From Paenibacillus mendelii (GTDB taxonomy: Bacteria; Bacillota; Bacilli; Paenibacillales; Paenibacillaceae), in contig NZ_JANHOF010000018.1 of NCBI RefSeq assembly GCF_024498075.1, forward strand, positions 1-64,000: 64,000 bases of DNA, in the 5' to 3' direction. The stretch's first letter is position 1, and each line of letters starts with the position of its first letter. This document shows positions 9,464 through 32,138 of the stretch, one piece after another. A model generated the notes under the pieces. That model was not told where the DNA came from. It saw nothing but the letters and a program-made list of their open reading frames with translations, and did no database searches. The position numbers and the translations under genes were made by a program.

Positions 9464-9539
9464 GCATTCTCAAATCGCAAACCATGTCATATTACGACTT
9501 CAGCAGATGTAAATATTTGATAAAAATATGGTTTACAAT

Positions 9540-9569
9540 TTGGGCTTCTTTGATTATCATAGATATAAG
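9540..9569 (+). promoter_or_regulatory. Candidate promoter of the hydrolase/ROK pair
   Basis: TTGGGC (9540-9545) and TATAAG (9564-9569) are 18 bases apart. The candidate operator begins immediately after the -10 box, where a bound repressor would block transcription. Confidence 0.45.
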
Positions 9570-9586
9570 TTAATCATTAAGTTAAT
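9570..9586 (+). promoter_or_regulatory. Candidate ROK operator, site A
   Basis: TTAATCATTAAGTTAAT shares its first nine bases with the sites at 13410 and 17415 (reverse strand) and eleven of twelve with the one at 17703. It lies at the presumed transcription start before the hydrolase/ROK pair. Binding by the ROK protein encoded at 12108 is inferred. Confidence 0.5.
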
Positions 9587-9636
9587 GGTCGGCTTGATCA
9601 GTTTGGTGCTTAGTATCAGCGGGTGGAGGGTGCGGC

Positions 9637-12108
9637 ATGGCGGACATAGGAATCGGCAGCCCCATGAGTACACAGGCGATAGATCTCACAAGAGCTGTAG
9701 TGCTCAGCGCCTCAGGGGCTGCTGGAGCGGAAGCGAAAGCGATTGAAGTACTGATTGAAGAGGTTGCCAAGCGTTCGGGCGTTATTTACCGGCGCATGCA
9801 TGAGCTTCCGGGAGCAGCAAGCGGCAATGATCCGATCATCGTTGCAGGTTCTCGGGAATCGCTTCTTCCGCTGATGGGTTCGGATGGGAATCTTGTCGAA
9901 GCGGCCAATCTGTCTCCAGAGGGTTATATACTGCGTACCTCCGAGCTCAGGGGACATTCAGCGGTAATGGTCATTGGAGCTGACGCCCGCGGGGTCCTGT
10001 ATGGAATTGGTAAGCTGCTGCGGCAAGTGTCTTTCAGGAGATGTTCGATTCAGTTGAGCGAAGAGCTGAATATCGTGACTTCTCCGCGGTTTGAACTGCG
10101 TGGGCATCAGCTCGGCTACCGCCCGAAAACGAATGCCTATGATGCTTGGACGCTCGAGCAGTACGATCAATACATACGGGAATTAGCCCTGTTCGGAGCG
10201 AACTGTATCGAAATATTACCTCCCCGCACTGACGATGCGAAGTCGGGGCCTCTCATGAAGGCCGATCCGCTAACCATGATGGTTCAGCTGTCGGAGACGA
10301 TCCATTCTTATGGACTCGATACTTGGGTCTGGTATCCGAATATCGGTAATGATTATGTCAATCCGGCTTCGAGGGCCGAGGAGCTGGCGGAGCGGGAGGA
10401 AATTTTCCGTCTCGTACCGCACATCCAAGCGGTATTTATTCCAGGCAGCGATCCCGGGGATATGGAGCCGGATTTACTGTTTGAATGGACAGGACATATT
10501 GCAAGCATCCTAAGCCACTATCATCCGGAGGCGAAAATTTGGTTGTCCCCACAGGTTATGATGCATGAATCGCGGCCTTGGCTGGATTCGTTCTATGCGC
10601 ATGTGGAGCGGGAGCCGGAATGGTTGGGCGGAATCGTATTCGGTCCGCATGTGGATGATCCTCTGCCCGAATTGCGGCGGCGAATACCTGCGAAATATCC
10701 AATCCGCCGGTATGAGGACATCACGCATAATTTCATCTGCCAGTATCCGGTCGCCGACTGGGATGTCGCCTTCGCCTTAACGCTCGGGCGTGAGTGCTAC
10801 AATCCAAGGCCGCTCGCGCAGAAGCAGATCCACAATGTCATTGCATCGCATGCAAACGGCAGCATTTGCTATTCGGAAGGCATTAATGATGACGTCAATA
10901 AATTTATTTGGCTGGATCAGGACTGGAATCCAAGCACATCCGTTATGGAGACGCTGCGCGATTATGCAAGGGTTTTCATTGGCCCTGATTACGCGGATTC
11001 AATCGCATGCGGTCTAATGGCTCAGGAGGAAAACTGGGCCTTGCCGCTCGCGGTTAATGATCAAGTGGAAATTACGCTTCAGCAGTGGAGGCAGATGGAA
11101 CGGCATGCTAATACGCATGTGCTCGGCAATTATCGTTTCCAAATGGGATTGCTTCGCGCCTATTACGACGCCTACACAAAACGGCGCCTGATCTACGAGA
11201 CGGAGCTGGAATACCGTGCTAAGGATGCCCTGCGTATGGCGGATCAGAATGGCAGTCTAGCCGCATTGGAGAAGATGGAGCGTATTCTGGGGCTTGCAAG
11301 AGCTGAACCGGTCGCGCCAGATTATCAGCTTCGCTGTCAGCAGCTGGCTGACGAGCTATTCGCGGGCATCGGGTCGCAGTTGACGGTGAGCCGGCATTAT
11401 GCAAGCCATCCGGAACGGGGAGCTTTCATCGAAGCGATCGACTTTCCGCTCAATGATATCAGGTGGCTGCGGCAGCAAAGTGAGATCATTCGCGAGGAGC
11501 CATCGGAAGCGGAGAGGCTGGTGCTCATCGAGCAGCTGCTCGACCGGACGAATCCCGGACCGGGAGGTTACTACGACAATCTGGGCTCACCGCGCAGCGC
11601 GAGCCGTATTGAATCGGGAACTCTTTGGGAGAATGATCCCGGTTACCTGAGCTCACCGCGAATTGCGCATATGCCGGGCATGATGATGATGATTAGCGAT
11701 AAGCGGCAAAAGGAGCTTGGCGGGGTACCGCTTGCTTGGGAGAATACGGCGAACATCATGCTGGATACGCCGCTTACACTCAGCTATGATCATCTCTCAC
11801 CCGGATGCCGCTATGCCGTGAAGATCACATACATTGGGGAGTCCAGAGGGGACGGATACTGGGTTACATTGACGGCGAATGACGAGCAGATCGTCCATGA
11901 AAACCTGCACATTCCCGCTGCATCGGTGATGACAGTACAGTCGGAAATACCGCCGTATGCGACGGCTAACGGCAAGCTGCAGCTCACGTTTCGGAGGGCA
12001 AAGGGGTTCAAGCGGCTGCACGTAGCGGAAATATGGCTTATTGTTGCAGCGGGGCACGAACCCCTTCAGGCACGCGGCTGCGAAGACAATTATCAATTGC
12101 GTTCATAA
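9637..12108 (+). CDS. Large glycoside hydrolase with alpha-glucuronidase-like N-domain, family unassigned
   Basis: An 823-residue protein without a signal peptide, so probably cytoplasmic. Residues about 12-150 look like the small alpha/beta domain before the barrel in GH67/GH20-type enzymes (PIIVAGSRESLLPL, then VIGADARGVLYGIGKLLRQV). A TIM barrel follows (about 155-470), starting RFELRGHQLGYRPKTNAYD and containing VFIPGSDPGDM, IWLSPQVMMHES, VFGPHVDDPLPE and NGSICYSEGINDD; the acidic residues in these are catalytic candidates. A helical part and a C-terminal beta-sandwich (about 690-815) complete it. The ATG at 9637 follows GGTGGAGGG. Its stop overlaps the start of the ROK gene, so hydrolase and regulator are co-expressed. 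It would act on an imported oligosaccharide. I cannot place it in a CAZy family. Confidence 0.75.
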   Translation: MADIGIGSPMSTQAIDLTRAVVLSASGAAGAEAKAIEVLIEEVAKRSGVIYRRMHELPGAASGNDPIIVAGSRESLLPLMGSDGNLVEAANLSPEGYILRTSELRGHSAVMVIGADARGVLYGIGKLLRQVSFRRCSIQLSEELNIVTSPRFELRGHQLGYRPKTNAYDAWTLEQYDQYIRELALFGANCIEILPPRTDDAKSGPLMKADPLTMMVQLSETIHSYGLDTWVWYPNIGNDYVNPASRAEELAEREEIFRLVPHIQAVFIPGSDPGDMEPDLLFEWTGHIASILSHYHPEAKIWLSPQVMMHESRPWLDSFYAHVEREPEWLGGIVFGPHVDDPLPELRRRIPAKYPIRRYEDITHNFICQYPVADWDVAFALTLGRECYNPRPLAQKQIHNVIASHANGSICYSEGINDDVNKFIWLDQDWNPSTSVMETLRDYARVFIGPDYADSIACGLMAQEENWALPLAVNDQVEITLQQWRQMERHANTHVLGNYRFQMGLLRAYYDAYTKRRLIYETELEYRAKDALRMADQNGSLAALEKMERILGLARAEPVAPDYQLRCQQLADELFAGIGSQLTVSRHYASHPERGAFIEAIDFPLNDIRWLRQQSEIIREEPSEAERLVLIEQLLDRTNPGPGGYYDNLGSPRSASRIESGTLWENDPGYLSSPRIAHMPGMMMMISDKRQKELGGVPLAWENTANIMLDTPLTLSYDHLSPGCRYAVKITYIGESRGDGYWVTLTANDEQIVHENLHIPAASVMTVQSEIPPYATANGKLQLTFRRAKGFKRLHVAEIWLIVAAGHEPLQARGCEDNYQLRS

Positions 12109-13316
12109 TGACAAAGCATAATGGAGTGAAAGTTATCAATACGAATAAACAAGCCTACCTTCAGCAAGTTAAGCAGCAAAACATATCAACTGTGCTGAAC
12201 GTGATTTGGGAGCAGCAGTCGATTTCGCGAGTAGAAATTATTGAGAAGACGGGTCTGACATCAGGGACGATTTCTAATTTGACGAAGGAACTGATTCAGC
12301 TCGGCATTATTCGTGAGTACGAAACGGTGTCCGGCGCGGTTGGACGCAGAAGGATAATGCTCGGCTTCAACCCGGATCCGTACCGGATTATCGGCATCGA
12401 CATTGGACGATCGACTATTGAGGTAGTGCTGACGGATCTTACGGGCAATGTCTTACTCTCGGTAGAGGAGAACACGGCTCATTTGCGAGGACCCGATCAA
12501 ATATTGGCGGTTATTGCTCCACATGTGAATCGAATGAAGGAGAAGGCGGCGGCGAGCGGAGGGCGAGTGCTCGGAATCGGCACCGCTGTACCGGGTCCGA
12601 TGGATTTGGAGAAGGGGATCATTCTGAGTCCGCCTAATTTCCCGGGCTGGGACGGGTATCCGCTTCGGGAAGAATTAACGGAACGCTTCTCGCTTCCAAC
12701 GCATATAGAAGACGATTCCTGTACCTGTGCGCTCGCGGAAAGATGGTACGGGGTCGGGAGGAACAGCAGGGATCTCGTATTCATCACGATGGGGATGGGA
12801 ATCGGCGGAGGGGTTGTGACGAATGGCGAGCTCGTACGGGGAACGAATGGCCTCTACGCACAGGTGGGTCATATGTCCATCGTTCCACGCGGCGAAACTT
12901 GCGTTTGCGGAAACTACGGCTGCTGGGAAACGGTAGGAACCATTCAAGCGATTCTTAAGCGTTCAGGCGGAGCGAGGACGATGGACGAGTTGAAGCGGCT
13001 CGTTCGCGAAGGGAATCCTGAGGCAACCCGATGCATGGAGGATACGCTGGCTTATTTGGAAATGGCGATTATCAATGTGTTCGCTATGTACGATCCGGAG
13101 CAAGTCGTGCTCGGCGGGCGGTTGTATCCCTATCTGTCCGATTATATCGTGGAATTAAGGCAGCGGGTAAGACAGCGGACCTTCTCATTCGTCAAGGATC
13201 GGGTTCAGATCACGTCTGCTACATTCGGAACGTCTCAGAGCGTAATCGGGGCTGCCGCCGTTGTGTTCGGAAAGCTGCTGGCCGCGCCTCTTGATACACT
13301 CTTCGATGAACGATGA
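12108..13316 (+). CDS. ROK-family transcriptional regulator (NagC/XylR type)
   Basis: A 402-residue repressor. A winged helix-turn-helix lies at residues about 35-72 (SISRVEIIEKTGLTSGTISN). It is followed by the ROK sugar-kinase-like fold: DIGRST (98-103) in the phosphate-1 position, GIGTAVPGPMD, GMGIGGGVV, and the zinc-binding motif C-x-C-G-x2-G-C at residues 265-272. HTH plus ROK marks a sugar-responsive regulator, not a kinase. The ATG at 12108 shares its A with the TAA stop of the hydrolase gene, indicating translational coupling; a GTG at 12126 is the alternative start. Four related AT-rich inverted sequences upstream of nearby operons are its likely operators. Confidence 0.88.
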   Translation: MTKHNGVKVINTNKQAYLQQVKQQNISTVLNVIWEQQSISRVEIIEKTGLTSGTISNLTKELIQLGIIREYETVSGAVGRRRIMLGFNPDPYRIIGIDIGRSTIEVVLTDLTGNVLLSVEENTAHLRGPDQILAVIAPHVNRMKEKAAASGGRVLGIGTAVPGPMDLEKGIILSPPNFPGWDGYPLREELTERFSLPTHIEDDSCTCALAERWYGVGRNSRDLVFITMGMGIGGGVVTNGELVRGTNGLYAQVGHMSIVPRGETCVCGNYGCWETVGTIQAILKRSGGARTMDELKRLVREGNPEATRCMEDTLAYLEMAIINVFAMYDPEQVVLGGRLYPYLSDYIVELRQRVRQRTFSFVKDRVQITSATFGTSQSVIGAAAVVFGKLLAAPLDTLFDER

Positions 13317-13332
13317 TCCTTGTGCTATGACT

Positions 13333-13370
13333 CCGGTTGACGTTAAGGCGACTAAGCCAGCGTCAACTGG
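13333..13370 (+). other. Inverted repeat after the ROK gene
   Basis: CCGGTTGACG and CGTCAACTGG form a 10-bp stem with one mismatch around an 18-base loop, shortly past the ROK stop. There is no U-run, so it may stabilise the 3' end of the mRNA instead of terminating it. Confidence 0.4.
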
Positions 13371-13409
13371 CAGCCAACGGCAGGGATAGGGTTATGCCGC
13401 GCAATTAAC

Positions 13410-13429
13410 TTAATCATTGGTTAAATAAA
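13410..13429 (+). promoter_or_regulatory. Candidate ROK operator, site B
   Basis: TTAATCATTGGTTAAATAAA differs at one of twenty positions from the reverse complement of site C (17415-17434). It ends about 15 bases before a possible -10 box TATACT (13444-13449), so it overlaps the -35 region of the dehydrogenase operon promoter. Confidence 0.6.
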
Positions 13430-13471
13430 TTCAACGTCCAGCATATACTGAGTTGTGCCCGTTGAAGACTG

Positions 13472-13494
13472 GAAGTCTCTTCCTAAGAGACTTC
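13472..13494 (+). other. Leader hairpin before the dehydrogenase operon
   Basis: GAAGTCTCT and AGAGACTTC form a perfect 9-bp stem with a 5-base loop in the presumed 5' untranslated region, 47 bases before the ATG at 13542. No T-run follows. It could be an RNA stability or protein-binding element. Confidence 0.45.
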
Positions 13495-13541
13495 TAAGAT
13501 AGAACAGGATTACATAATGAAATGATGTGGGAGGAATAGAA

Positions 13542-14591
13542 ATGAAAGCGGTTGTCAACTATCAATCCGGAGCTGGAAGCGTTGAGGTTCGTGACGTTCC
13601 GGTTCCGTCCGAGCTGGGGCCCAAGGACGTCTTAATTCAAGTGAGAGCTGCAGGCATTTGCGGCAGCGATCTGCATATGTACCACGACATTCAAGGGTTT
13701 CCGGTCAAACGGCCGGTGACGCTGGGCCATGAATATGCCGGAGTCGTAGCCGATGTCGGTTCGGAGGTGACTCTCTTCAAGAAAGGGGATCGCGTCGTAA
13801 GCGAGACCCCTGCCTATATATGCGAAACCTGCATTTACTGCCGGTCCGGTCAGTATAATCTATGCCCGGATCGAAGAGGCTTCGGTGTTCTCGAAGATGG
13901 CGCCATGGCAGAATACGTGAAAACCCGTGAAGCCATCGTTCATAAAGTGCCGGATAATGTTTCCTTCGAGAAAGCGGCCATGACCGAACCGACTTGCGTA
14001 GCATACAATGCGGTTGCCCATCATTCCCGCATTCGTCCAGGCGATTACGTTGTCGTATTCGGACCGGGCCCCATCGGATTGATGTGTGTGCAGATGGCTA
14101 AATTATTTTCCCCTGGAAAATTAACGATCGTCGGAACCAGCAAGGACAAGAACCGGCTTGAGATCGCCAAGCAATTCGGTGCGGATACGGTCATCATTGG
14201 CGATGAACAGGATGTGGTTCAAGAGATACTTTCTCATGGAGATGGATTCGGTCCTGATCTGGTGCTCGACGCGGTAGGCATATCCATTACACTGAAGCAG
14301 AGCATCGACGTCGTTCGCCCGGCCGGCCAAATTACCAAGATCGGATGGGGACCGGCTCCGGTTGGATTCACGCTCGATCCGTTGATTCAAAAGGCGGCCC
14401 GTCTGCAAGGATCCTTCAGCCATAATTATCCGATGTGGGAGAAAGTGCTGCTCATGATGGGTAAAGGCGAGATCGATCCGCTGCCGATGACGAAGTCCTA
14501 TGATATCGATCAATGGAAAGCAGCCTTCGATGAAATGGATTCTCTGGCCATTGCCAAGTCGATTATTCTGCCCCATTCACCAAAAAATTGA
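13542..14591 (+). CDS. Zinc-dependent medium-chain alcohol (polyol) dehydrogenase
   Basis: A 349-residue cytoplasmic enzyme of the MDR superfamily. Catalytic-zinc residues are in place (Cys40, His63, Glu64, Glu149), as are four cysteines for the structural zinc (94, 97, 100, 108). The NAD-binding fold has VVVFGPGPIGLM (about 172-183). The closest types are sorbitol, threonine and galactitol dehydrogenases, so oxidation of a secondary hydroxyl on a polyol or sugar acid is likely. The ATG at 13542 follows GGGAGG with an 8-base spacer. It is the first gene of a four-gene operon; the decarboxylase/aldolase-like gene begins 17 bases after its stop, and the candidate operator at 13410 would control it. 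Confidence 0.88.
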   Translation: MKAVVNYQSGAGSVEVRDVPVPSELGPKDVLIQVRAAGICGSDLHMYHDIQGFPVKRPVTLGHEYAGVVADVGSEVTLFKKGDRVVSETPAYICETCIYCRSGQYNLCPDRRGFGVLEDGAMAEYVKTREAIVHKVPDNVSFEKAAMTEPTCVAYNAVAHHSRIRPGDYVVVFGPGPIGLMCVQMAKLFSPGKLTIVGTSKDKNRLEIAKQFGADTVIIGDEQDVVQEILSHGDGFGPDLVLDAVGISITLKQSIDVVRPAGQITKIGWGPAPVGFTLDPLIQKAARLQGSFSHNYPMWEKVLLMMGKGEIDPLPMTKSYDIDQWKAAFDEMDSLAIAKSIILPHSPKN

Positions 14592-14608
14592 GCGCGGGAG
14601 TGATAGAT

Positions 14609-15283
14609 ATGAAACCGATTGTACAAATTTCATTGGATTTAACCAATATCAAGGAAGCGCTCGAAATGGCTGAAATCGCCGTAGAGGCAGGAATCGATTG
14701 GATCGAAGCGGGAACTCCCCTGCTGCTTGGCGAAGGACTTCATGCCGTTGCGGCATTGCGTGAAGCATTTCCGAGCCATCCTATCGTTGCGGACTTGAAA
14801 ACAATGGACGGCGGCTATCTGGAAGCGGAAATGATGGCGAAGGCTGGCGCGACCCATGTCGTTGTCATGGGCGTGGCACACCAGGCCACCATTCGAGCCG
14901 TAGTGAAAGCAGCAAGGGATTATAATATCAAGGTAATGGGAGATATTATGGCTTCCGCAGATCCCGTTGCATGCGCCAAAATGCTCGAAGCCAACGGGGT
15001 CGATTATATTATTGTTCATACCGGATTCGACGAAAGAGGTGAAGATCCGCAGCGGACTCCTTTCGACCATCTGCATGAGGTTGTCCAAGCGGTCTCCATT
15101 CCCGTCCAGGCTGTAGGAGGTTTGTCGGTCGCGCAGGCAGCAGAAATGCCTAAACACGGCGCCCCGCTGGTCGTTGTCGGAGCACCGCTCGTTATTGATC
15201 AGAAGGAGTTTCGCCCAAGCACGGACAAATCCGAACTAAAAGCCGTCCTGCAGGATCTAGTAGCACAAGTAAAGAGTGCCTAG
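14609..15283 (+). CDS. Hexulose-phosphate synthase / OMP-decarboxylase-fold enzyme
   Basis: A 224-residue TIM-barrel protein of the HUMPS group, which includes 3-hexulose-6-phosphate synthase (HPS) and 3-keto-L-gulonate-6-phosphate decarboxylase (UlaD). The metal and catalytic motif D-x-K-x2-D is present at 62-67 (ADLKTMDGG). The text VDYIIVHTGFDERG and VQAVGGLS is nearer to HPS than to UlaD. HPS condenses formaldehyde with ribulose 5-phosphate or does the reverse. No 6-phospho-3-hexuloisomerase partner lies nearby, and dehydrogenases flank it on both sides, so it is more likely a catabolic aldolase or decarboxylase acting on an oxidised sugar phosphate. The ATG at 14609 has a GGGAG site; the upstream ATG-like start is discarded. 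Confidence 0.82.
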   Translation: MKPIVQISLDLTNIKEALEMAEIAVEAGIDWIEAGTPLLLGEGLHAVAALREAFPSHPIVADLKTMDGGYLEAEMMAKAGATHVVVMGVAHQATIRAVVKAARDYNIKVMGDIMASADPVACAKMLEANGVDYIIVHTGFDERGEDPQRTPFDHLHEVVQAVSIPVQAVGGLSVAQAAEMPKHGAPLVVVGAPLVIDQKEFRPSTDKSELKAVLQDLVAQVKSA

Positions 15284-15299
15284 GAAGAGGGGTTAGCGC

Positions 15300-16223
15300 A
15301 TGAATACGAACAAAGGTGCCAGAATAGCCGTATTTCCGAAAGGATATATCGAAGAATTATCAGATGGAAGAATGGCATTGGAAGAGTGGATTGAAATGGC
15401 CGGAACGTTGGGTGCGGATGGATTGGAGCTATATCCATTGTTTCTGAAGCAGCTGGACGAAGCCTATTTGCAAAGCGTGAAGGAAGCGGCGCATAAACAA
15501 GGTTTGGAAATCCCCATGATGTGTGCTTCGCCGGATTTCACTCATCCGGATGCTGCTTTCCGGGCACAGGAAATTGTGAAAATGAAGCAAATGATTGACG
15601 TGATGGCTTATTTGGGACCGGAACCATTCCGAAGCTGCCGGGTACTATCCGGGCAGAAACGGCCGGAAGTATCCATAGAAGACGGGATACGCTGGACGGT
15701 GGAGTGCATCGAGACGCTGCTTCCATATGCCGAGGAGAAACAGGTCCATCTGGTCATGGAGAATCACTATAAGGACGGATTCTGGATTCATCCCGAGTTT
15801 GCCCAGCAATCCAACATCTATTTGGCTATCATACGGCAAATATCCTCCCCTTGGTTCGGTGTGAATTATGACCCTTCTAACGCGATCTTCGCAGGGGAAA
15901 ATCCATTAGAGCTATTAAGTGAAGTCAAGGATAGAGTGATTACAATGCATGCCAGTGACCGTTATTTGAAGGATGGCTATTCCTTGGAGGACTTGAAGAA
16001 TTATTCCTTGCAGGGGTACTCCGAAGCGCTGGCACACGGTGTAATCGGCAGGGGCATGAATGATTACGATACGATCTTCGCGGAGCTTGCGAGCGTTCAT
16101 TTTCGGGGATGGATTTCGATCGAGGATGGCGTAAACGGCCTTGGGGATTTGCGCGAATCTGTTATTTTCTTAAGGGGAAAAGTAACGGAATATTTGGAAG
16201 ACTCCCTCGAATCGACCAAGTAA
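15300..16223 (+). CDS. Xylose-isomerase-like TIM-barrel sugar isomerase/epimerase
   Basis: A 307-residue cytoplasmic protein of the AP-endonuclease-2/xylose-isomerase-like fold. Likely metal ligands are visible at the ends of barrel strands: VMENHYKDG (Glu), VNYDPSNAIFAG (Asp), TMHASDR (His) and ISIEDGVNG (Glu). Relatives include sugar-phosphate 3-epimerases such as UlaE, and hydroxypyruvate or inosose isomerases. The ATG at 15300 follows GAAGAGGGG. It starts 16 bases after the HPS-like gene and ends 24 bases before the second dehydrogenase, so it is part of the same operon. A role in isomerising the product of the dehydrogenase step is inferred. Confidence 0.82.
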   Translation: MNTNKGARIAVFPKGYIEELSDGRMALEEWIEMAGTLGADGLELYPLFLKQLDEAYLQSVKEAAHKQGLEIPMMCASPDFTHPDAAFRAQEIVKMKQMIDVMAYLGPEPFRSCRVLSGQKRPEVSIEDGIRWTVECIETLLPYAEEKQVHLVMENHYKDGFWIHPEFAQQSNIYLAIIRQISSPWFGVNYDPSNAIFAGENPLELLSEVKDRVITMHASDRYLKDGYSLEDLKNYSLQGYSEALAHGVIGRGMNDYDTIFAELASVHFRGWISIEDGVNGLGDLRESVIFLRGKVTEYLEDSLESTK

Positions 16224-16247
16224 CGGTAATAGAAAAGGAGAATGACC

Positions 16248-17279
16248 TTGAAGGCATTTATGATCCATGAGCCCCATAATTACTCCGTTGTCGATATTCC
16301 CGTTGCCGAGCCAGAGGAGGGGCAGGTGCTTGTCCGCTCCATGTATGCCGGCATATGTGGGACGGATCTAGAACTGGTTAAAGGAATGGTACGCGCAGAT
16401 GCGGTGAGCTATCCATGTATCCCCGGACATGAGTGGAGCGGTATCGTCGAGAAAGTCGGTCCTGGCGTAACGGGTCTCAAGCAAGGGGACAGAGTGGTTT
16501 CCGAAGGCGTCCAGCACTGCGGGCATTGCAGGTTCTGCAGACAGGGAGAAACCAACCTATGCGAGCACATGAAGGAGCTAGGCTTCACCATGCCAGGCGG
16601 ATTATCCGAGTACGTGGTTGTCAATGCGAAAATGATTCACCGCTTGCCGGATAATTTCCCGCTGGATATGGCCGCATTAATTGAGCCGACTGCCGTAGTT
16701 ACCCGGGGGGTATGGCGTGCGAAGCCGAAACCGGGCGAGACGATTGCGGTGATCGGTCCGGGAACCGTCGGTCTTCTAGCGATCATGATTTCCAAGCTGT
16801 TCTCTCCTCGTAAAATGATTCTGATCGGAGTCACTGAGGAGTCGTTATCGCTTGGCCTAAGTCTTGGAGCTACGGACATCGTCAATGTGACCAAGGAGGA
16901 AGCTGCCGGCAGAGTCGCTGAACTGACGGATGGATTCGGAGCAGATATCGTGATCGAGTGCGCTGGGAAGAGCAGTGCCGTTGATATGGCATTCTCCATC
17001 GTTCGCAGAGGCGGTAAAGTCGTCTTATTGGGGGCGGCCGGCAAGGATGCAACCATGGAGCTATACAGTGATATCTTCCATGTGAAGGACCTTGAAATTC
17101 ACGGTATTCTATCTTACACCAAAGAGACTTGGCAGGATGCCGTCAATCTCGTTACCAACCGCTTGATTCCGGTAGAGAAATTGATTCGTTATCGATTTTC
17201 TCTGGATGAGGTTGATCAGGCGCTGGATGTGCTGGATTCCGGCAAAGGCGTAGGGAAATCGCTGATTGAGCTTCCCTAG
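16248..17279 (+). CDS. Second zinc-dependent medium-chain dehydrogenase
   Basis: A 343-residue MDR-family enzyme, a distant paralogue of the one at 13542. Catalytic-zinc residues Cys37, His61, Glu62 and Glu146 and structural-zinc cysteines 91, 94, 97 and 105 are present; the NAD site reads IAVIGPGTVGLLA. The TTG at 16248 is chosen over the ATG at 16242: AAAAGGAG is 7 bases before the TTG and only one before the ATG, and the family starts MKA. It is the last gene of the operon. Two dehydrogenases in one operon suggest two oxidoreduction steps, for example oxidation at one carbon and reduction at another during epimerisation. Confidence 0.86.
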   Translation: MKAFMIHEPHNYSVVDIPVAEPEEGQVLVRSMYAGICGTDLELVKGMVRADAVSYPCIPGHEWSGIVEKVGPGVTGLKQGDRVVSEGVQHCGHCRFCRQGETNLCEHMKELGFTMPGGLSEYVVVNAKMIHRLPDNFPLDMAALIEPTAVVTRGVWRAKPKPGETIAVIGPGTVGLLAIMISKLFSPRKMILIGVTEESLSLGLSLGATDIVNVTKEEAAGRVAELTDGFGADIVIECAGKSSAVDMAFSIVRRGGKVVLLGAAGKDATMELYSDIFHVKDLEIHGILSYTKETWQDAVNLVTNRLIPVEKLIRYRFSLDEVDQALDVLDSGKGVGKSLIELP

Positions 17280-17331
17280 CAAGAAGGAGAGAGCAAGGCT
17301 GAGAAACTTGCAAGTGCTGGCTTGAAGCTGC

Positions 17332-17386
17332 GGCGGGACATCGGAGCTGATGATCTTGGCATATGTTCATCCTCCGATGGACCGCC
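17332..17386 (+). other. Hairpin with tandem G-A mismatches after the dehydrogenase operon
   Basis: GGCGG and CCGCC, then GA opposite GA, then CATCGGAG and CTCCGATG form a two-part stem around a 25-base loop. It starts 53 bases past the operon's last stop. There is no U-run, so 3'-end protection is as likely as termination. Confidence 0.45.
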
Positions 17387-17414
17387 AAATGTTCAGGCAG
17401 AGTATGGTTTTCAT

Positions 17415-17435
17415 TTTATTTAATCAATGATTAAA
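17415..17435. promoter_or_regulatory. Candidate ROK operator, site C
   Basis: TTTAATCA-A-TGATTAAA (17419-17435) is a perfect palindrome with 8-base arms. Read on the reverse strand with its flank, it matches site B at 19 of 20 positions. Confidence 0.6.
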
Positions 17436-17664
17436 CACTTCGCATATCGGATTCCTCTATATCCGGAAATCGGCGCGGGAGCTGGTATTTCCAGTTATCG
17501 ATACCGGTTATTTCACCATACACTCCAACCCACAATGAATATACGACATAAGCCCGCAGAACCCCATCAAGAAACACTAGACATACATCCCATGAAGTGA
17601 CAGAATTTTCGGATTCGCATCGAAATTAGTCGAAAAATATGACATAAAATACTAAATATAGAAA

Positions 17665-17693
17665 TTGACGAGAGTTATCTAATGGGTTAAGAT
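17665..17693 (+). promoter_or_regulatory. Promoter of the aldolase/importer run
   Basis: TTGACG (17665-17670) and TAAGAT (17688-17693) are separated by 17 bases. A site resembling operator A (TTAATCAATAAG, 17703-17714) lies about ten bases downstream of the -10 box. Confidence 0.6.
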
Positions 17694-17702
17694 GGAATTA
17701 GC

Positions 17703-17714
17703 TTAATCAATAAG
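17703..17714 (+). promoter_or_regulatory. Candidate ROK operator half, site D
   Basis: TTAATCAATAAG matches the first part of site A (TTAATCATTAAG) at 11 of 12 bases and has a similar position just after a -10 box. The second arm is not obvious, so it is the weakest of the four sites. Confidence 0.35.
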
Positions 17715-17811
17715 GATATAAAAGGAAGTTACTCCTTGTTACGTGATCAATGGAATTTGAAGCGGCGGAGACGATCCGACGCTTACAAAGGCACTCAGCG
17801 GTAATGAAGAA

Positions 17812-17842: not shown

Positions 17843-18736
17843 GTGTCAATGATTCATTCAAGTGGACCCAATGAACGGTTTGCCGGTGTTTACGCCTTAC
17901 TGTTATCTCCCTTTACCGAGGATGGAGCACTGGATTGGAACGCTTATGACCGCTATGTGGATTGGCAGCTATCGATGCGCCCGCACGGATTGTTTGCCGT
18001 GTGCGGCAGCAGTGAGATGGGGCTCCTTACTGTGGAAGAACGAATTGCCTTAGCAAAACGAGCGGTAGAACGCGCAGGGAGCATCCCGGTGATCGCCACG
18101 GCAAACGTCGACGTCAATATCGACAATCATGTTCAGGAAATGCAGCGTATGGCAGAAACCGGCGTACAGGCGATCGTCCTCATTCCTCCGAGAGATATGG
18201 GGGTAAACCAGGAGCGCCTTGAGGAATACTTTGCCAACCTTGCGGACCGCTCGCCATTGCCTGTCCTCTTATACGAATGTCCGCTCTATAAGCCGCATCT
18301 TATCGATGCGAAGGTATACAGCAGCTTAGTTCACAACCACGGTATCGTCGGGATCAAAGACACGACCTGCACGGTAGAAGGGATTCAGGCGAAGATAACG
18401 GCTGCACCGGACGGGATTGTCTATCAGGCGAACACGGCGCTGATGCTTGAAGCGCTTCGTATGGGCGCACGCGGCATTATGGCTATTACGGCTACAGCTG
18501 CAGTGGATGTTGTCCTTCAGCTGTGGAATAGTGCTGCTTCCAGCTCCGATGATGCCACAGCAATCCATCAGAGTCTTATTCAATTAAACATAAGCTTGGA
18601 GATGGGCTATACCGCTACGGCGAAGTACCTTGCTTCTCTGCGCGGTGTACCTATGAGCTATGAGACGAGGTCGGGCAGGAAGCTGAGTCCGGAGGCTGCG
18701 GCTGCGATCCAGGCCTGGCATCGGTCCAACTGCTAA
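17843..18736 (+). CDS. DapA/NanA-family aldolase or dehydratase
   Basis: A 297-residue class I aldolase-type TIM barrel. The family marks are present: GSSEMGLLT (55-63) for the carboxylate-binding loop, Tyr144 in LLYECP and the Schiff-base Lys172 in GIVGIKDTT. Members condense or split pyruvate-containing substrates: dihydrodipicolinate synthase, N-acetylneuraminate lyase, 2-keto-3-deoxy-sugar-acid aldolase, ketodeoxyglucarate dehydratase. Biosynthetic DapA is unlikely because the gene heads a sugar importer run under a cre site; a 2-keto-3-deoxy acid from uronic-acid breakdown fits better. The GTG at 17843 has TGGAG 7 bases upstream; the longer upstream frame would include the cre site and is rejected. 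Confidence 0.85.
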   Translation: MSMIHSSGPNERFAGVYALLLSPFTEDGALDWNAYDRYVDWQLSMRPHGLFAVCGSSEMGLLTVEERIALAKRAVERAGSIPVIATANVDVNIDNHVQEMQRMAETGVQAIVLIPPRDMGVNQERLEEYFANLADRSPLPVLLYECPLYKPHLIDAKVYSSLVHNHGIVGIKDTTCTVEGIQAKITAAPDGIVYQANTALMLEALRMGARGIMAITATAAVDVVLQLWNSAASSSDDATAIHQSLIQLNISLEMGYTATAKYLASLRGVPMSYETRSGRKLSPEAAAAIQAWHRSNC

Positions 18737-18783
18737 GCTAGCGGAAATACAGGCATGAAGCCCAAGCTACCCTCATGACAGAA

Positions 18784-18797
18784 TGGAAGCGCATTCA
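18784..18797. promoter_or_regulatory. Weak cre-like site before the giant binding protein
   Basis: TGGAAGCGCATTCA fits the loose cre pattern TGNAANCGNWWNCA but has two differences from the stricter consensus. It lies between the aldolase stop and the TTG at 18859. Confidence 0.3.
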
Positions 18798-18858
18798 TGT
18801 TGTGGCGTTTCGCAAGAAAATGCCTGTATGCATGAAGGGCACGAAAGGAGGACTTATT

Positions 18859-21825
18859 TTGATTCGAGTGCTTCGCAAACACGTCCTTACAATCCTTATA
18901 TTCATAGTTCTCATCATTGTTGTGGTGAACTGGATGAATTCCAGAGGGTTTAATGATACGGCAATGGCCGGGATTCCGACGTACAGCAATGTCGATGAGC
19001 AGTCTCTGCTGACGAACGTCAACTTTAAATTCCAGCAAGAATCCACTTATTTGCAATACCTGGACGATTTGCAGAAGAAGGGAATCACAGACACAAGCGG
19101 AGTACGAATCGCGATCGCAGGCAATCAATATTCGGCAATTAGCGCGTCCGGCGCTCACATAGAGCGGGACTTGGGAGACCGCAAAGGGGACGTTCTCGTC
19201 TTGAACGAGGAGAACAGCTGGGTGGAATATGCAGTGGAAATTCCAAGTGAAGGCTTCTATCAGATGGGGATTAGCTATTATGCCCTTGAAGGCAAGAGCG
19301 GGGCGATCCAGCGAAGCGTACAGGTCGATGGGGAATACCCGTTTGCACAGGCGAAACGCCAGACCTTCTCAAGAATGTGGCGGGAATCCGGACCAACCAC
19401 ACGCGACGATATGGGCAATGAGATGAACCCGGGCCATGATGAAGTGTTTGGCTGGCAGTACAGCGAGTTCCGCGATCCGGAAGCGAAGGTGGAGGAGCCG
19501 TTGCGCTTTTACTTGAAGCCCGGCAAGCATACGATACGGATCAACTTTCTGCGTGAACCTGCGGCCATAGGCGAATTGAATGTGTTTTCACCGGTTGTGT
19601 TACCTGATTATACGCAGGTGTCCGGAGAATACGGCAGTAAAGGTTATCCGGTTACGAAGGGCTTCTATCAAGAGTTCCAGGCGGAAGAAGCGGTGCTTAA
19701 ATCCGGGCCTTCCATGCGCCGGCTGGAGAACCGCGATCCGGCAACCCAGCCCTATGACAGAGATGCGATCGCCTTGAATACGATCGGCGGCGATCCTTGG
19801 CGCGATGGAGGACAATGGTTGGAATGGGAGATCGAAGTCCCGGAATCCGGGCTGTACAATATCGGCACGCGTTTTCTGGCCAAATGGTTAAATCATGTTG
19901 CCGTTCAGCGGATGGTATACATAGACGGCCGGATCCCGTTTAAGGAAATGAACAAGGCTTCCTTCGCTTACTCGCTGACTTGGAAGGTCGGCGGGCTAGG
20001 AAATACGGAGAATCCGTATCTGTTTTATTTGGAGAAGGGCAAACACCGGATCCGGATGGAAGTGCAGGTCGGGGATTTGGGGAAGGTGTTTGAAGGGGTT
20101 CAAGTGGCCACGGGTAAAATGTCTCTGCTGGCCAGGGAAGTGTTGATGATAACCGGCTCTAATCCGGACCCGAACTATCAATGGGAGCTGGTGGAGAACA
20201 TCCCGAATATTGTGCCTCGCCTTCATCTGATCGCTCGCGACCTTGATACCGCGATCAAGCGGATGTACGCCCTTGGCATCGAGAAGGGGAGCTCGGAAGT
20301 CGCGATCCTGGCTGCAGCGCGGGACCAGATGATCGACATGGCGGCTAAACCGGACAGCATTCCGAAGCGTCTGGACAATTTGTCGAGCACACAGTCTAGC
20401 CTGGGGTCTTGGATTACCGGTTTTTCGAGACATCGGCTGCAGCTTGATTACTTGATCATCAAGTCGCCGGAGCAGTCTTGGCCGGATGCCTCCTCGGGAT
20501 TTGCGAAGAAGCTGTCCGCGAACGTCTATGACTTTTTCTCCTCGTTTACGAGAGATTATCGAGCAATCGGCAAAACCGAGCAGGACGATGAGAGAACCCT
20601 TGATGTGTGGGTTGCCCGTGGACGGGATTGGGTCCAGGTTCTGAAACAAATGATCGATAACGATTTCACCGCGAATACCGGAATTAAGGTGAACGTCAAT
20701 CTCATTCCGGCGAATGCGATGAATCTGTTCATGCTGGCAATTTCGTCCGGCAATGCGCCAGATGTCGCGCTCGGTGTCGATCAGCAAGTACCGATCGACT
20801 TTGCGCTGCGGGGCGGGCTGCAGGATTTGGGCATCTTCCCTGATTATGCCGAAGTGGCCAGCCGATTCAAGCAGGGTGCGCTCACTCCTTATCGATTCGA
20901 CGGCGGAAATTATGCTTTGCCGGAGACGCAAAATTTCAATATGATGTTTTACCGGAAAGATGTACTGCAGGAGATCGGCATCGATGAGCTGCCTGAAACC
21001 TGGCAGGAGGTATTCGATATTATTCCGATTCTGCAGCAGAAGGGTCTCGATTTCTACTTCACTCCAGATCTCAGCACGTTCTCCTCCTTCCTCTTTCAAT
21101 TAAGCGGGGAATTTTACCGGGATCACGGGAAGGCTTCCAACCTCGATACGCCTGAAGGGCTGAAGGCGATGAAGATGTGGACGGGATTGTACACCAACTA
21201 CAAGATATCGAAGGAAGCCAACTTCTATAACCGGTTCAGAACCGGGGAAATACCGATCGGCGTGGCCGATTATACCATGTATCTGCAGTTAATGACGGCG
21301 GCGCCTGAGCTGACGGGCTTATGGGAAATGCGACCAATGCCTGGGATTACACAGGAGGATGGCCAGATCAACCGCTCGATGGGCGGAGCCGGTCAATCGG
21401 CCGTTATCTTCAAGGATTCCAAGCTGAAGGACGAGGCTTGGGAGTTCGTGAAGTGGTGGACCAGCCAGCAGTCACAGGAGAGATACGGGGCGGATATCGA
21501 GATGTCATTGGGTTCTGCGGCTCGCTGGAACACAGCTAATGTTGAAGCGTTGAAGGATTTGCCGTGGGCGAAGAAGGATGTCGATGCGATTCTGGAGCAG
21601 TGGGAATGGTTTAAAGAACGCGAAATCGTACCGGGCGATTACTATACAACTCGTTATATCACGAACATCTGGAGCGAGATCGTGTTGAACGGAAAAAATA
21701 TACGCGAGGCTCTTGAAGAGGGCGTTAAGGAAATTAATAAAGAAATCAGGAAGAAGCGGACAGAGTTCAATCTAGACGTTGAACCGGCTGCAAATTCATC
21801 TTCTAAAGGAGGGAGCGGAAAATGA
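18859..21825 (+). CDS. Membrane-anchored giant solute-binding protein with two sugar-binding-like domains
   Basis: A 988-residue protein. The TTG at 18859 follows AAAGGAGG by 7 bases. A single N-terminal membrane segment (residues about 7-27) anchors it; there is no lipobox. Residues about 75-250 and 270-445 hold two related beta-sandwich units, shown by WVEYAVEIPSEGFYQMGI against WLEWEIEVPESGLYNIGT and by RSVQVDGEYPF against RMVYIDGRIPF; they resemble CBM6/35-type modules. A helical link (about 450-570) leads to a type 1 binding-protein domain (about 578-960) starting LDVWVARGRDWVQVL, with NMMFYRKDVLQEIGI and AWEFVKWWTS. Ordinary CUT1 binding proteins have about 400-550 residues, so over half of this one is extra. 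Its stop overlaps the first permease start. Confidence 0.85.
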   Translation: MIRVLRKHVLTILIFIVLIIVVVNWMNSRGFNDTAMAGIPTYSNVDEQSLLTNVNFKFQQESTYLQYLDDLQKKGITDTSGVRIAIAGNQYSAISASGAHIERDLGDRKGDVLVLNEENSWVEYAVEIPSEGFYQMGISYYALEGKSGAIQRSVQVDGEYPFAQAKRQTFSRMWRESGPTTRDDMGNEMNPGHDEVFGWQYSEFRDPEAKVEEPLRFYLKPGKHTIRINFLREPAAIGELNVFSPVVLPDYTQVSGEYGSKGYPVTKGFYQEFQAEEAVLKSGPSMRRLENRDPATQPYDRDAIALNTIGGDPWRDGGQWLEWEIEVPESGLYNIGTRFLAKWLNHVAVQRMVYIDGRIPFKEMNKASFAYSLTWKVGGLGNTENPYLFYLEKGKHRIRMEVQVGDLGKVFEGVQVATGKMSLLAREVLMITGSNPDPNYQWELVENIPNIVPRLHLIARDLDTAIKRMYALGIEKGSSEVAILAAARDQMIDMAAKPDSIPKRLDNLSSTQSSLGSWITGFSRHRLQLDYLIIKSPEQSWPDASSGFAKKLSANVYDFFSSFTRDYRAIGKTEQDDERTLDVWVARGRDWVQVLKQMIDNDFTANTGIKVNVNLIPANAMNLFMLAISSGNAPDVALGVDQQVPIDFALRGGLQDLGIFPDYAEVASRFKQGALTPYRFDGGNYALPETQNFNMMFYRKDVLQEIGIDELPETWQEVFDIIPILQQKGLDFYFTPDLSTFSSFLFQLSGEFYRDHGKASNLDTPEGLKAMKMWTGLYTNYKISKEANFYNRFRTGEIPIGVADYTMYLQLMTAAPELTGLWEMRPMPGITQEDGQINRSMGGAGQSAVIFKDSKLKDEAWEFVKWWTSQQSQERYGADIEMSLGSAARWNTANVEALKDLPWAKKDVDAILEQWEWFKEREIVPGDYYTTRYITNIWSEIVLNGKNIREALEEGVKEINKEIRKKRTEFNLDVEPAANSSSKGGSGK

Positions 21826-22775
21826 GCGAGGTGATTGCCCGCACGAGTACCGGGAAGAAACAGAAGGCGGCCAGTCTAAAGCCGGGGTTATGGGCACAAA
21901 TCGTCAGGTACCGGATGTCCTACCTGTTTCTCGCTCCCTTCATGCTGCTGTTCATCATGTTTACGGTCGTTCCGGTGTTTACCGCGATCGGGCTCAGCTT
22001 TACGTATTACAACATCCTGGAGTCTCCCCGCTGGGTGGGCTTGCTGAATTACAAGACGCTGTTCGTCAATGACGATATCTTCCTGAAAGCAGTCGGCAAT
22101 ACATTGAAATTTGCCGTGATTACCGGGCCGGTCGGCTATTGCATGTCGTTCGTGCTGGCCTGGTTAATCCACCAAATCCCGCATAAATACCGTTTCTTCT
22201 ATACGTTGTGCTTCTACACGCCAGCGATTACGAGCGGGACGGCTGTAGCGGTCGTCTGGGCTTATCTCTTCTCAGGGGACCGTTATGGGATGATCAACAG
22301 CTGGGCCATCCGCTTAGGCATACTCGATGAACCCTGGCTTTGGCTCAAGGATGTAAAGACGATCCTGCCTGTGTTGATTCTCGTCTCGCTCTGGATGAGT
22401 ATGGGGGTTGGGTTCCTGGCCTTTCTGGCCGGTCTTGCCAATGTATCACGGGAAATGTACGAAGCGGCAACCATTGACGGGGTGAAATACCGCTGGCAGG
22501 AGCTGTGGTATGTCACGCTGCCCGCCATGAAGCCGCAGCTGTTATTCGGCGCTGTACTGACGATCGTAAGCTCGCTGCAGGTGTTCGATATCAGCGTCGC
22601 GCTTGCCGGGAATCCGAGTACGCTGTACGCCGGTCATGTCATTATGACCCACTTGAACGATTATGCGTTTGTCCGATTCGAAATGGGATATGCCGCTGCC
22701 ATAGCCGTCGTCCTGTTTCTATTGATGGTTGGGCTGAACCGGTTCATCTTCAACATACTCGGAGACAAGGAGTGA
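21822..22775 (+). CDS. CUT1 sugar ABC permease (MalF type)
   Basis: A 317-residue inner-membrane protein with about six membrane segments. It contains the EAA loop that contacts the ATPase (EMYEAATIDGVKYRWQELWY, with the conserved Gly). The ATG overlaps the stop of the binding-protein gene (ATGA), and the second permease starts 6 bases after its stop, so the three form one transport unit. No ATP-binding subunit gene accompanies them; in Gram-positive CUT1 systems a shared MsmX-type ATPase serves several importers. The substrate is probably an oligosaccharide from plant cell wall, by context. Confidence 0.9.
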   Translation: MSEVIARTSTGKKQKAASLKPGLWAQIVRYRMSYLFLAPFMLLFIMFTVVPVFTAIGLSFTYYNILESPRWVGLLNYKTLFVNDDIFLKAVGNTLKFAVITGPVGYCMSFVLAWLIHQIPHKYRFFYTLCFYTPAITSGTAVAVVWAYLFSGDRYGMINSWAIRLGILDEPWLWLKDVKTILPVLILVSLWMSMGVGFLAFLAGLANVSREMYEAATIDGVKYRWQELWYVTLPAMKPQLLFGAVLTIVSSLQVFDISVALAGNPSTLYAGHVIMTHLNDYAFVRFEMGYAAAIAVVLFLLMVGLNRFIFNILGDKE

Positions 22776-22781
22776 GCAACG

Positions 22782-23648
22782 TTGAACGAAAGCTCGATCG
22801 TCAGACGGAATGATTGGAGCGGCCGAATTCTGTTTCTTTTGCTCACCCTATTCGGTTTGCTGATGCTGGCCCCGCTAGTTTACCTGACATCGACGGCATT
22901 TAAGCCCAAAGCGGAATTGTTCTTATTCCCGCCTCGTTTCTTCGTTATGAATCCGACCCTGTTGAATTTTACCGATCTGCTTTCTGTGACGGAATCATCA
23001 CTCGTGCCGTTCTCCCGGTATATTTTCAACAGCATCATTGTTGCAGGGTCTGTGGTGATCGGCGGGATCGCCATCGGCTCGATGGCTGCGTATCCGTTAA
23101 GCAAACATAAAGGCATGCCGTTCGGCAGATTGATCTTCAAGATGATCATTCTGGCCCTTATGTTTGCCCCGGCGGTTACGCAAATTCCCCAGTATCTGGT
23201 CATGACGGAGCTCGGCATGATGAATACCTACTGGGCGCTTATCCTGCCTGGCTTGGCTTCTCCGATCGGTTTGTTCCTGATGAAGCAGTTTCTCGATCAA
23301 ATACCGGACGCACTGCTCGAAGCGGCCCGCATTGACGGGGCGAACGAAGTGCACACATTCCGTAAAATTATATTTCCGCTCCTGCAGCCTGCGGTTGCCA
23401 CTTACGCCTTGTTCAGCTTCATAGCGGCATGGAACGATTCATGGTCAGCATCGGTATTCACCACCTCCGATCAGATGAAAACCCTTCCATTCGCCATTAT
23501 GTCGATCAGCGGGGGTGTGAACGATATTGCGCGTGCCGGCGCGATGGCCGCATCCAGCTTCTTGATGATCATCCCGACATTAGTCGTGTTTATCGTCACG
23601 CAGCGCAAAGTCATGGAAACGATGGCCCATTCAGGAATTAAAGGATAA
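22782..23648 (+). CDS. CUT1 sugar ABC permease (MalG type)
   Basis: A 288-residue membrane protein with six predicted segments and the EAA loop LLEAARIDGANEVHTFRKII. The first periplasm-side loop and VYLTSTAFKPKAELF are typical of MalG-type subunits. The TTG at 22782 follows AAGGAG with an 8-base spacer. It pairs with the permease at 21822. An NHL-repeat gene starts 11 bases downstream, so transcription continues. Confidence 0.9.
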   Translation: MNESSIVRRNDWSGRILFLLLTLFGLLMLAPLVYLTSTAFKPKAELFLFPPRFFVMNPTLLNFTDLLSVTESSLVPFSRYIFNSIIVAGSVVIGGIAIGSMAAYPLSKHKGMPFGRLIFKMIILALMFAPAVTQIPQYLVMTELGMMNTYWALILPGLASPIGLFLMKQFLDQIPDALLEAARIDGANEVHTFRKIIFPLLQPAVATYALFSFIAAWNDSWSASVFTTSDQMKTLPFAIMSISGGVNDIARAGAMAASSFLMIIPTLVVFIVTQRKVMETMAHSGIKG

Positions 23649-23659
23649 GGGGGAGCGCT

Positions 23660-25141
23660 GTGAGAACGAAAGGACGGTTGGGGGTCGTGCTTGCGGTGAC
23701 AGCAGCGTTACTGCTGACGCTGCCGATGACCGCCTTTGCCGAAATTCCATATGCCGGTTATACGTACAATAACAAACAGAATTCGGTTCCTTCGATCAAT
23801 GGTTATGTGTATGCCGATTCGATCGACGGCTTCGAGAGCACGGCTGGCGCTTTTCAAGATATCCAGGATATCTTCATCGCCAAGGACGATACGCTCTACA
23901 TCGTGGACAGCGCGAATAACCGGATCATCCATTACGATAAGAACAAGCAGCTGCTCGGAATCATCGGGGATACAGAGGGTAAAGGTCAGCTGAATATGCC
24001 AAAGGGCGTATTCGTGACAGATGATGACAAGGTATACGTAGCCGACACCAAAAACAACCGAATCGCGGTGTTTGACAAGGATGGCGAGTTTGTCCGGGAG
24101 TTTCTTGATCCTAAGAGCAAGCTGCTGGGCAGCAACTTTATGTACCTGCCATCCAAGGTGATCGTGGACAAGAACGGAAACATGTTTATCGTCTGCGACG
24201 GTTTGTACAGGGGGCTGCTGCAGCTGAACGCCAACGGGGAGTTTGCAGGCTTGTTCGGAGCGAACCATGTCGAGTTCAGTCTGACGAAGCTCATATCCAA
24301 CCTCATCTCAACAGAGGAGCAGAAGAAACAGATCGCAGGCGAGAAGCCGCCGGAGTTTTCCAATCTGTTCTTAAATGAGGAAGGGTTCATCTACACGACA
24401 ACGCTGGGCATTCGTCAGGAGCAGATTAAACGATTAAGCTCCGTCGGCAAGGACACGTTGAATGAGCAAAGCTCTTTAAAGGATAAGCATTATGGCGACT
24501 TTAACATGAGAGGCGGCAGAATGATCTATGAAGCCTTTGTCGATTTGAGCGTAGATCGGCAAGGCTTCATAACCACAGTCGATCAGACGACAGGAAAATT
24601 ATTTCAATATGACAGCCTGGGCAATCCGCTGTTCATATTCGGAGGCCTTGGCACACAGAATGGGCTGTTCATTACGCCAAGCAGCGTTGCGCAGACATCG
24701 GACGGCGTCATCTATGTCGCCGATAAATCGCGTAATCGGATCGACCGGTTCCGTATTACGCCGTTCGGAGAGCTCGTTCATAAAGCGTCGGTGCTTTATG
24801 TCGATGGCCTCTATGAGGAAGCGCAGGAGCCGTGGCAGGAAGTGCTGGAGTTAAACGGAAACTTCGATATGGCTTATTTTGCAATCGGTAAGTCCTTATA
24901 TAAGCAGGAGCGTTACAAAGAAGCGATGACCTATTTCAAAACCGCCCGCGCCAGCGATGAATATTCCAAAGCGTTTCTCGAATACCGCAAAGGCTACATC
25001 CAAGATCATTTTGCTGTCCTATTCGCCGGAGTAATTGGGCTTTATATTCTATTTCAGTTGACCAAGATGCTGTACCGAAGACGAAAGAGAGCGAGAAGGA
25101 ATGGAAGATTTGTTTCGAAGGCAGAAGGGGGAGAAGCGTAA
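23660..25141 (+). CDS. Exported NHL-repeat / TPR protein with C-terminal membrane anchor
   Basis: A 493-residue protein. A signal peptide ends near AFAEIP (about residue 28). NHL beta-propeller blades are clear: DDTLYIVDSANNRIIHYDKN (near 75), DDKVYVADTKNNRIAVFDKDG (near 120) and DGVIYVADKSRNRIDRFRI (near 355). Residues about 375-440 carry TPR-like helices (LYEEAQEPWQEVLELNGNFDMAYFAIGKSLYKQERYKEAM). A membrane helix (about 455-475) precedes a basic Arg/Lys cytoplasmic tail. The propeller and TPR would therefore face outward. It begins with GTG after GGGGGAG. Propellers of this type bind ligands or proteins; a docking role beside the giant binding protein is inferred from position. Confidence 0.82.
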   Translation: MRTKGRLGVVLAVTAALLLTLPMTAFAEIPYAGYTYNNKQNSVPSINGYVYADSIDGFESTAGAFQDIQDIFIAKDDTLYIVDSANNRIIHYDKNKQLLGIIGDTEGKGQLNMPKGVFVTDDDKVYVADTKNNRIAVFDKDGEFVREFLDPKSKLLGSNFMYLPSKVIVDKNGNMFIVCDGLYRGLLQLNANGEFAGLFGANHVEFSLTKLISNLISTEEQKKQIAGEKPPEFSNLFLNEEGFIYTTTLGIRQEQIKRLSSVGKDTLNEQSSLKDKHYGDFNMRGGRMIYEAFVDLSVDRQGFITTVDQTTGKLFQYDSLGNPLFIFGGLGTQNGLFITPSSVAQTSDGVIYVADKSRNRIDRFRITPFGELVHKASVLYVDGLYEEAQEPWQEVLELNGNFDMAYFAIGKSLYKQERYKEAMTYFKTARASDEYSKAFLEYRKGYIQDHFAVLFAGVIGLYILFQLTKMLYRRRKRARRNGRFVSKAEGGEA

Positions 25142-25755: not shown

Positions 25756-25765
25756 GAGGGATCGA

Positions 25766-28941: not shown

Positions 28942-28946
28942 TGGCG

Positions 28947-32048: not shown

Positions 32049-32138
32049 TTCCGCTGCACACCACCGGATAAGTCGATCCCAGCAGCCGTTTTTTCATACT
32101 TATGTACCGCATCAATTCCACCCGAAGGAGTGCATATC

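Follow-up and report, generated by a model that had tools for sequence, protein, structure and literature searches.

The DNA considered here, hereafter the window, comprises positions 1 to 64,000 of contig NZ_JANHOF010000018.1 of Paenibacillus mendelii (assembly GCF_024498075.1), and it carries at 12108 a gene for a ROK-family repressor. We conclude that this ROK protein probably binds four sites, A to D, and represses the hydrolase/ROK operon, the dehydrogenase operon and the aldolase/importer run (Table 1), since four related sites before these three operons match a motif found beside related ROK genes. The local ROK regulon postulated in the initial annotation is supported in silico by the sites themselves, by their conservation in the closest relative (genome G020), by the absence of such sites at 13 of 13 loci that have the core of the dehydrogenase operon and lack an adjacent ROK gene, and by a recognition helix common to the ROK relatives. 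The gene at 12108 is moreover, as had been stated, the only ROK gene nearby, the other 15 of the 16 ROK-like matches of the genome being located off this contig.

Table 1. Predicted sites, promoters and genes of the cluster
Feature	Position	Strand	Sequence or basis
Operator A (predicted)	9565..9585	.	ATAAGTTAATCATTAAGTTAA, axis 9575
Operator B (predicted)	13405..13425	.	TTAACTTAATCATTGGTTAAA, axis 13415
Site C, weakest, doubtful operator	17415..17435	.	TTTATTTAATCAATGATTAAA, includes 17-base palindrome
Operator D (predicted)	17698..17718	.	TTAGCTTAATCAATAAGGATA, axis 17708
Predicted promoter, hydrolase/ROK operon	9532..9560	+	TTTACA-17-TATCAT, 10/12 consensus bases
Predicted promoter, aldolase/importer run	17665..17693	+	TTGACG-17-TAAGAT, 9/12 consensus bases
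823-amino-acid protein, GH67-type N-terminal domain	9637..12108	+	PF03648, E 1.1e-7
ROK-family repressor gene	12108..13316	+	PF00480 E 2.2e-56, HTH_24; helix-turn-helix signature, zinc motif
Dehydrogenase operon	13542..17279	+	Pfam and NCBIfam
Aldolase/importer run (predicted)	17846..35760	+	Pfam; aldolase start may be 17750

Operator motif and sites in the window

A search of 394 genomes of the family for relatives of the ROK protein (E <=1e-90) gave 11 matches in 10 other genomes, which belong to three of 19 genera; one match, that of G020, is 88% identical and the remaining ten are 49-58% identical. Symmetric expectation maximization on twelve gaps of these loci, with the window excluded and odd widths of 13-25, returned TTAACTTAAT-S-ATTAAGTTAA or its core at each odd width tried (18.5 bits at width 21), and even widths gave other A+T-rich palindromes of lower likelihood. 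Some of the training gaps, those of L077 (after the ROK gene) and L081 (one before the HAD gene, one after the ROK gene), were picked after pattern matches had been seen there. When the 64-kb window is scored with the width-21 matrix, A (24.4), D (18.6), B (15.2) and C (12.7) stand ahead of the next place at 8.2, and the same four are on top with the width-19 matrix. They furthermore remain the top four at width 21 when G020 is left out of the matrix, and likewise in 9 of 9 leave-out runs, of which three removed no gap because L074, L075 and L080 are absent from the training set. Ten shuffled controls, which preserve base composition only, reached likelihoods of 26.8-33.1 vs 57.1 for the real gaps, and none of the sites appeared in any of their top fours. 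Among the held-out loci of ROK relatives a site scoring at least 13.5 lies within 300 bp of the ROK gene at 9 of 11; the site of L080, which was scored while its relatives L072 and L073 were still in training, is found just before the ROK stretch as judged from locus coordinates, and L075 has 11.5 within 300 bp of its ROK gene and 23.7 before the neighbouring operon.

The likeness between B and C from which the initial annotation had set out is confirmed, in that TTAATCATTGGTTAAATAAA at 13410-13429 is matched by the minus strand at 17415-17434 in all but one of its 20 bases, and in that site C indeed contains a perfect 17-base palindrome, TTTAATCAATGATTAAA, at 17419-17435. In the whole genome of 8,134,755 bases the 20-mer is found at only two places with at most two mismatches, and three mismatches add one more, on contig C15 within an open reading frame. 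The palindrome pattern is found with at most two mismatches at three genome places (17419, 13409 and C3:193982, that is position 193982 of contig C3) and with at most three at 29, vs 11 for a reversed control. Related sequences are also present at 9570 and 17703 as had been reported, each preceded by a -10-like box, and they are distant matches only to the 17-mer, from which they differ at 4 and 5 positions; A and D stand out solely under the matrix learned from other species and not by way of the 17-mer. The view that B and C are the best sites has to be reversed, A and D being strong, B weaker, and C weakest and doubtful. The 17-base palindrome was also considered as the general operator unit and was rejected, as the conserved axis in G020 and other ROK relatives is the C/G of TTAAT-S-ATTA, and B and C have a longer TTAATCATTGRTTAAATAAA in common that this axis does not fully explain.

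ROK proteins generally repress as dimers and are released by a sugar. The dimer of the present protein would sit on the axis TTAAT-S-ATTA with the arms TTAAC/GTTAA. When bound at A or D it would overlie the transcription start, because the 21-base site starts 4 bases past the predicted -10 in both; the distance is 5 bases at the A site of G020. Site C would at best play a weak auxiliary part. The repressor would be released by a sugar ligand, for which an intermediate in the utilization of uronic-acid or pectin-type oligosaccharides is the most likely candidate, and hydrolysis, oxidation and import would then be switched on in concert. With regard to the promoters themselves, the -35, the -10 and the upstream stretch of the hydrolase/ROK promoter align with the G020 ROK promoter. 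The promoter scan found none for B, where a stretch noticed by eye, TTAAAT-17-TATACT (13421-13449), would set B over a -35, and no counterpart of it was seen in G020.

Conservation with and without the ROK gene

G020 retains the ROK gene together with the dehydrogenase operon, their order unchanged and their identity 82-94%, and its DNA aligns with window positions 9500-9586, 12104-13305, 13525-17272 and then from 35824 on. Site A is kept at 16 of 21 bases and site B at 21 of 25, and the gaps otherwise align poorly except for the promoter at A. A matrix made without G020 gives its two sites 14.0 and 17.2, and those of the window 20.0 (A), 11.6 (B), 12.5 (C) and 18.6 (D). Since the first aligned piece ends at site A, the hydrolase gene of the window is flanked by operator A and the ROK gene, and indeed no hydrolase gene is present in G020 between the matching promoter and the ROK gene, that genome containing only weak relatives of the hydrolase in pieces of 27-32% identity. 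The 18.5-kb importer/pectin block is likewise missing from this place in G020, the alignment ending at 17272 and restarting at 35824, and two relatives of the aldolase (58% and 51%) are located elsewhere in its genome. With neither the hydrolase nor the importer block at this place, what G020 conserves of the regulon is the ROK gene with the dehydrogenase operon.

The core dehydrogenase genes are found at 13 further loci in 12 genomes (second gene 80-88% identical; 12 loci of 15 kb and one of 4.0 kb, with two near-identical loci from G006), and a ROK gene was seen at none of them. The operator site is found at 0 of these 13 loci, the best score being 5.6 in the 700 bp upstream and 10.6 anywhere in the loci. 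Dehydrogenase 1 is complete at 7 of them, partial at 1 and not found at 5, and where it is lacking the 700-bp stretch scored is the one preceding the hexulose-phosphate-synthase-like gene. Furthermore, G007 and G009 have a ROK relative elsewhere in the genome and no site before the dehydrogenase operon, and the site therefore goes with an adjacent ROK gene and not with the operon. The three relatives of the 823-amino-acid hydrolase in the family (47-49%) belong to other clusters and showed no site above chance in a pattern scan, and relatives of the aldolase (48-58%) are without a site at 5 of 6 loci (best 9.7). The sixth, in G367, has a site of 21.6 placed 46 bp before a gene run, with the aldolase relative about 2.9 kb further on; this site is on the same contig as the ROK gene of G367, and part of the matrix training came from G367 itself.

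Most ROK relatives of 50-58% identity (L072, L075-L079) adjoin a different gene set, by eye nickel-pincer genes of LarB/LarC/LarE type together with a HAD protein, and operator-like sites precede these nickel-pincer-like genes too.

Alternative explanations

A sequence-only model built from ten sites of other species (R1) placed A at E 0.0002, D at 0.008, B at 0.04, a half-site at 8359 at 0.35 and C at 1.2 in the window. In the genome, where 150 of 3409 candidates were scored, it gave six places at E <=10, namely A (0.02), C3:193982 (0.2), D (1.0), C19:69322 (2.3), C13:94522 (3.1) and B (4.9), with C13:94522 within an open reading frame and C19:69322 in a gap downstream of a ROK-kinase-like gene. 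The genome scan that had been suggested as a check is thus favourable as far as A ranks first, D third and B sixth, but it leaves C unlisted, and matches are also dispersed over genomes that lack this ROK protein.

A number of results weigh against the regulon as drawn. Under R1, C is only fifth in the window, behind the half-site at 8359, and it is not among the genome-wide places at E <=10 given by the candidates scored. The ranking depends on the width of the matrix as well: at width 25 place 60608 scores above C, and with the matrix made without G020 place 20448 scores above C and B at width 19, and A and D lead at width 17 with C sixth and B ninth. The same matrix without G020, run over 211,751 positions of the own genome, gives C3:193982 22.1, C18:73406 13.1 (in an open reading frame) and C18:75222 11.7, so that C18:73406 outranks C and B and C18:75222 outranks B; because of these matches on C3 and C18, the score alone does not set B and C apart, and both lie near 11.7, the 99% point of random 760-bp pieces. 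Scattered R1 matches at E <=3 are found in 15 of 22 genus genomes, including genomes without this ROK protein, and G019, in which no close relative of this ROK protein occurs, contains one that equals A in strength. By eye, and not by profile, this G019 match is near a GntR-like gene, and two other matches in the genus are before MarR-like genes. The promoter-like matches in the region, 14 vs 11.9 (standard deviation 3.1) in shuffles, are not above chance overall. G020 is without the importer block at this place and therefore allows no comparison of C and D. Finally, the expectation that relatives with the ROK gene also keep the sites holds for A and B in G020 and is complemented by the 13 of 13 siteless loci without an adjacent ROK gene, but it fails at L074 (G007), one of the 11 loci of ROK relatives, which has no site (best 7.1).

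Several of these points are directed at C, and the alternative that this ROK protein has its operators at A, B and D alone, with C as a look-alike or in the service of something else and no part of an otherwise real regulon, is nearly as probable as not. C is the weakest of the four and outside the genome-wide R1 list, it is located about 400 bp upstream of the aldolase gene and is flanked by no promoter-like match, and it is without a counterpart in G020; it does however agree with B at 19 of 20 bases while no third genome place comes within two mismatches, and in the leave-out runs it still ranks fourth of the window with the width-21 matrix. It is improbable that another regulator uses the sites, be it another ROK protein of the genome or the AraC-type protein encoded at 8372. 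The AraC-type gene does adjoin the cluster and the genome does have 15 further ROK-like matches, but the motif derives from loci of relatives of the local ROK protein, whose recognition helix is found in 0 of 15 paralogues (about nine with an alignable helix-turn-helix), and G020 keeps the ROK gene with A and B and has no relative of the AraC-type gene that could be found in its 20-kb locus. That the sites are nothing but chance A+T-rich stretches near promoters is very improbable indeed, for even though 15 of 22 genus genomes have a match at E <=3, one match falls inside a coding frame of the own genome and B and C score near the 99% point of random pieces, such an explanation is in poor agreement with the joint ranking of A to D, the shuffled controls, the conservation in G020 and the lack of a site at every one of the 13 operon-core loci that have no ROK gene alongside.

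The preferred reading, a regulon of the local ROK protein, may extend beyond the window. C3:193982 (L044:7983-8003) is a strong site between a divergent Ceramidase_alk gene and the gene of a 922-amino-acid protein without a Pfam match, and it is a possible fourth target. In 21 other genomes of the genus the 922-amino-acid protein has a single relative (G014, 49%), with no site there, and a PDB sequence search with it gave no match.

The ROK protein and known systems

As in other members of the family, a winged helix-turn-helix (HTH_24, residues 29-69) is followed by a ROK domain (residues 95-386), and the A+T-rich palindromic operator at its own and neighbouring sugar operons, seen in silico at A to D and in relatives, is likewise what the family leads one to expect. 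All 10 relatives aligned have the recognition helix LTSGT[ILV][ST]NLT, which none of the 15 paralogues shows. The zinc motif of ROK proteins, CxCGxxGCxE, reads CVCGNYGCWE in the window protein and is present in 11 of 11 proteins checked. The sugar-contact motif ExGH of ROK proteins is by contrast QVGH, with Q in 11 of 11 proteins checked, and two PDB chains aligned with the protein have EIGH; since this motif varies among regulators, QxGH does not exclude membership of the family. The start of the gene may be a GTG at 12126, because the alignment shows G020 to lack the ATG of 12108.

Mlc and NagC are sugar-released repressors, and the window protein resembles Escherichia coli Mlc in aligning with it over both the helix-turn-helix and ROK domains, but differs from Mlc and NagC in having QxGH instead of ExGH. 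Its best NCBIfam models are NagC with 184 bits and Mlc with 162 bits, and since these scores are far under the curated cut-offs of 650 and 530, respectively, it is neither NagC nor Mlc. The nearest operator described is that of XylR of Paenibacillus polymyxa, which is a ROK repressor of the xylose operon with a palindromic 25-bp operator verified by band shift (PMC9104551). XylR is thus likewise a ROK repressor of a sugar operon, with a palindromic operator and from the same bacterial family, but its consensus ACTTWGTTTAWSSNATAVACAAAGT matches A to D at just 13-17 of 25 positions over both orientations, even with N counted as a match, and the present targets and likely the ligand are different. 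The regulon of RokB of Streptomyces coelicolor, another ROK regulator, was defined by way of a genome scan, and its inverted repeat TTTGTTC-11-GAACAAA and other target genes set it apart from the present system; the same paper notes T-rich 5' ends and A-rich 3' ends for the sites of several ROK regulators, including Mlc and NagC (PMC4856308). In the literature searched we found no paper describing this subfamily or its operator.

A more far-reaching reading would be that of a separate ROK subfamily, found in three genera of its family and marked by LTSGT-[ILV]-[ST]-NLT and QxGH, with TTAACTTAAT-S-ATTAAGTTAA as its own operator, whose regulon would have grown here by capture of a uronidase-like gene between A and the ROK gene and of the 18.5-kb importer/pectin block with D at an A-like offset from the -10, and which would sense an unusual uronic-acid intermediate; as a whole we consider this combination rather less probable than the restriction of the operators to A, B and D. 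The sugar control is of an ordinary kind, as is the regulon itself, and what is predicted as new is the set of target genes; what deserves notice is the predicted link to uronic acids, along with the QxGH pocket. The subfamily gains a concrete predicted operator, recognition helix and target list, and the comparison with G020 suggests how large catabolic modules may be brought under a resident repressor or released from it.

Genes of the cluster and further observations

The 823-amino-acid protein is likely a hydrolase for uronic-acid sugars, as its GH67-type domain would suggest, and a PDB sequence search with it gave no match. The dehydrogenase operon encodes, in this order, Zn dehydrogenase 1, a hexulose-phosphate-synthase-like protein (OMP-decarboxylase-type in Pfam and closest to hexulose-phosphate synthase in NCBIfam), a xylose-isomerase-like TIM barrel and Zn dehydrogenase 2. 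The aldolase/importer run contains a DHDPS-family aldolase, solute-binding proteins, permeases, NHL, DUF5696, Gfo/Idh, TIM-barrel, GH88 and oligogalacturonate-lyase-type proteins. When nine further proteins were compared with Pfam, 8 of 9 were matched (permease, NHL, DUF5696, Gfo/Idh, TIM barrel, solute-binding, GH88 and oligogalacturonate-lyase type), the protein at 55809, outside the importer block, being without a Pfam match. The gene content suggests the use of uronic-acid or pectin-type oligosaccharides. The AraC-type regulator gene near the cluster occupies 8372-9355, and the half-site-like match at 8359-8373 (8.6 bits, E 0.35) is found just before it.

Rfam gave no match at E 1 over 7000-19000. 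An inverted repeat AAGTCTCTT-CC-TAAGAGACTT is found at 13470-13495 in the leader of the dehydrogenase operon, where the G020 leader does not align. Another inverted repeat, TGTAAA...TTTACA at 9508-9537, spans the upstream stretch and the -35 of the promoter at A and is kept in G020; it is possibly a second regulatory site. The axes of C and D are about 283 bp apart, near 27 DNA turns, a spacing that, speculatively, would allow a DNA loop. Just 5' of the aldolase gene, TGTAATCGATTACA at 17812-17825 is a perfect match to the cre consensus TGWNANCGNTNWCA, which makes catabolite repression of the importer run possible.

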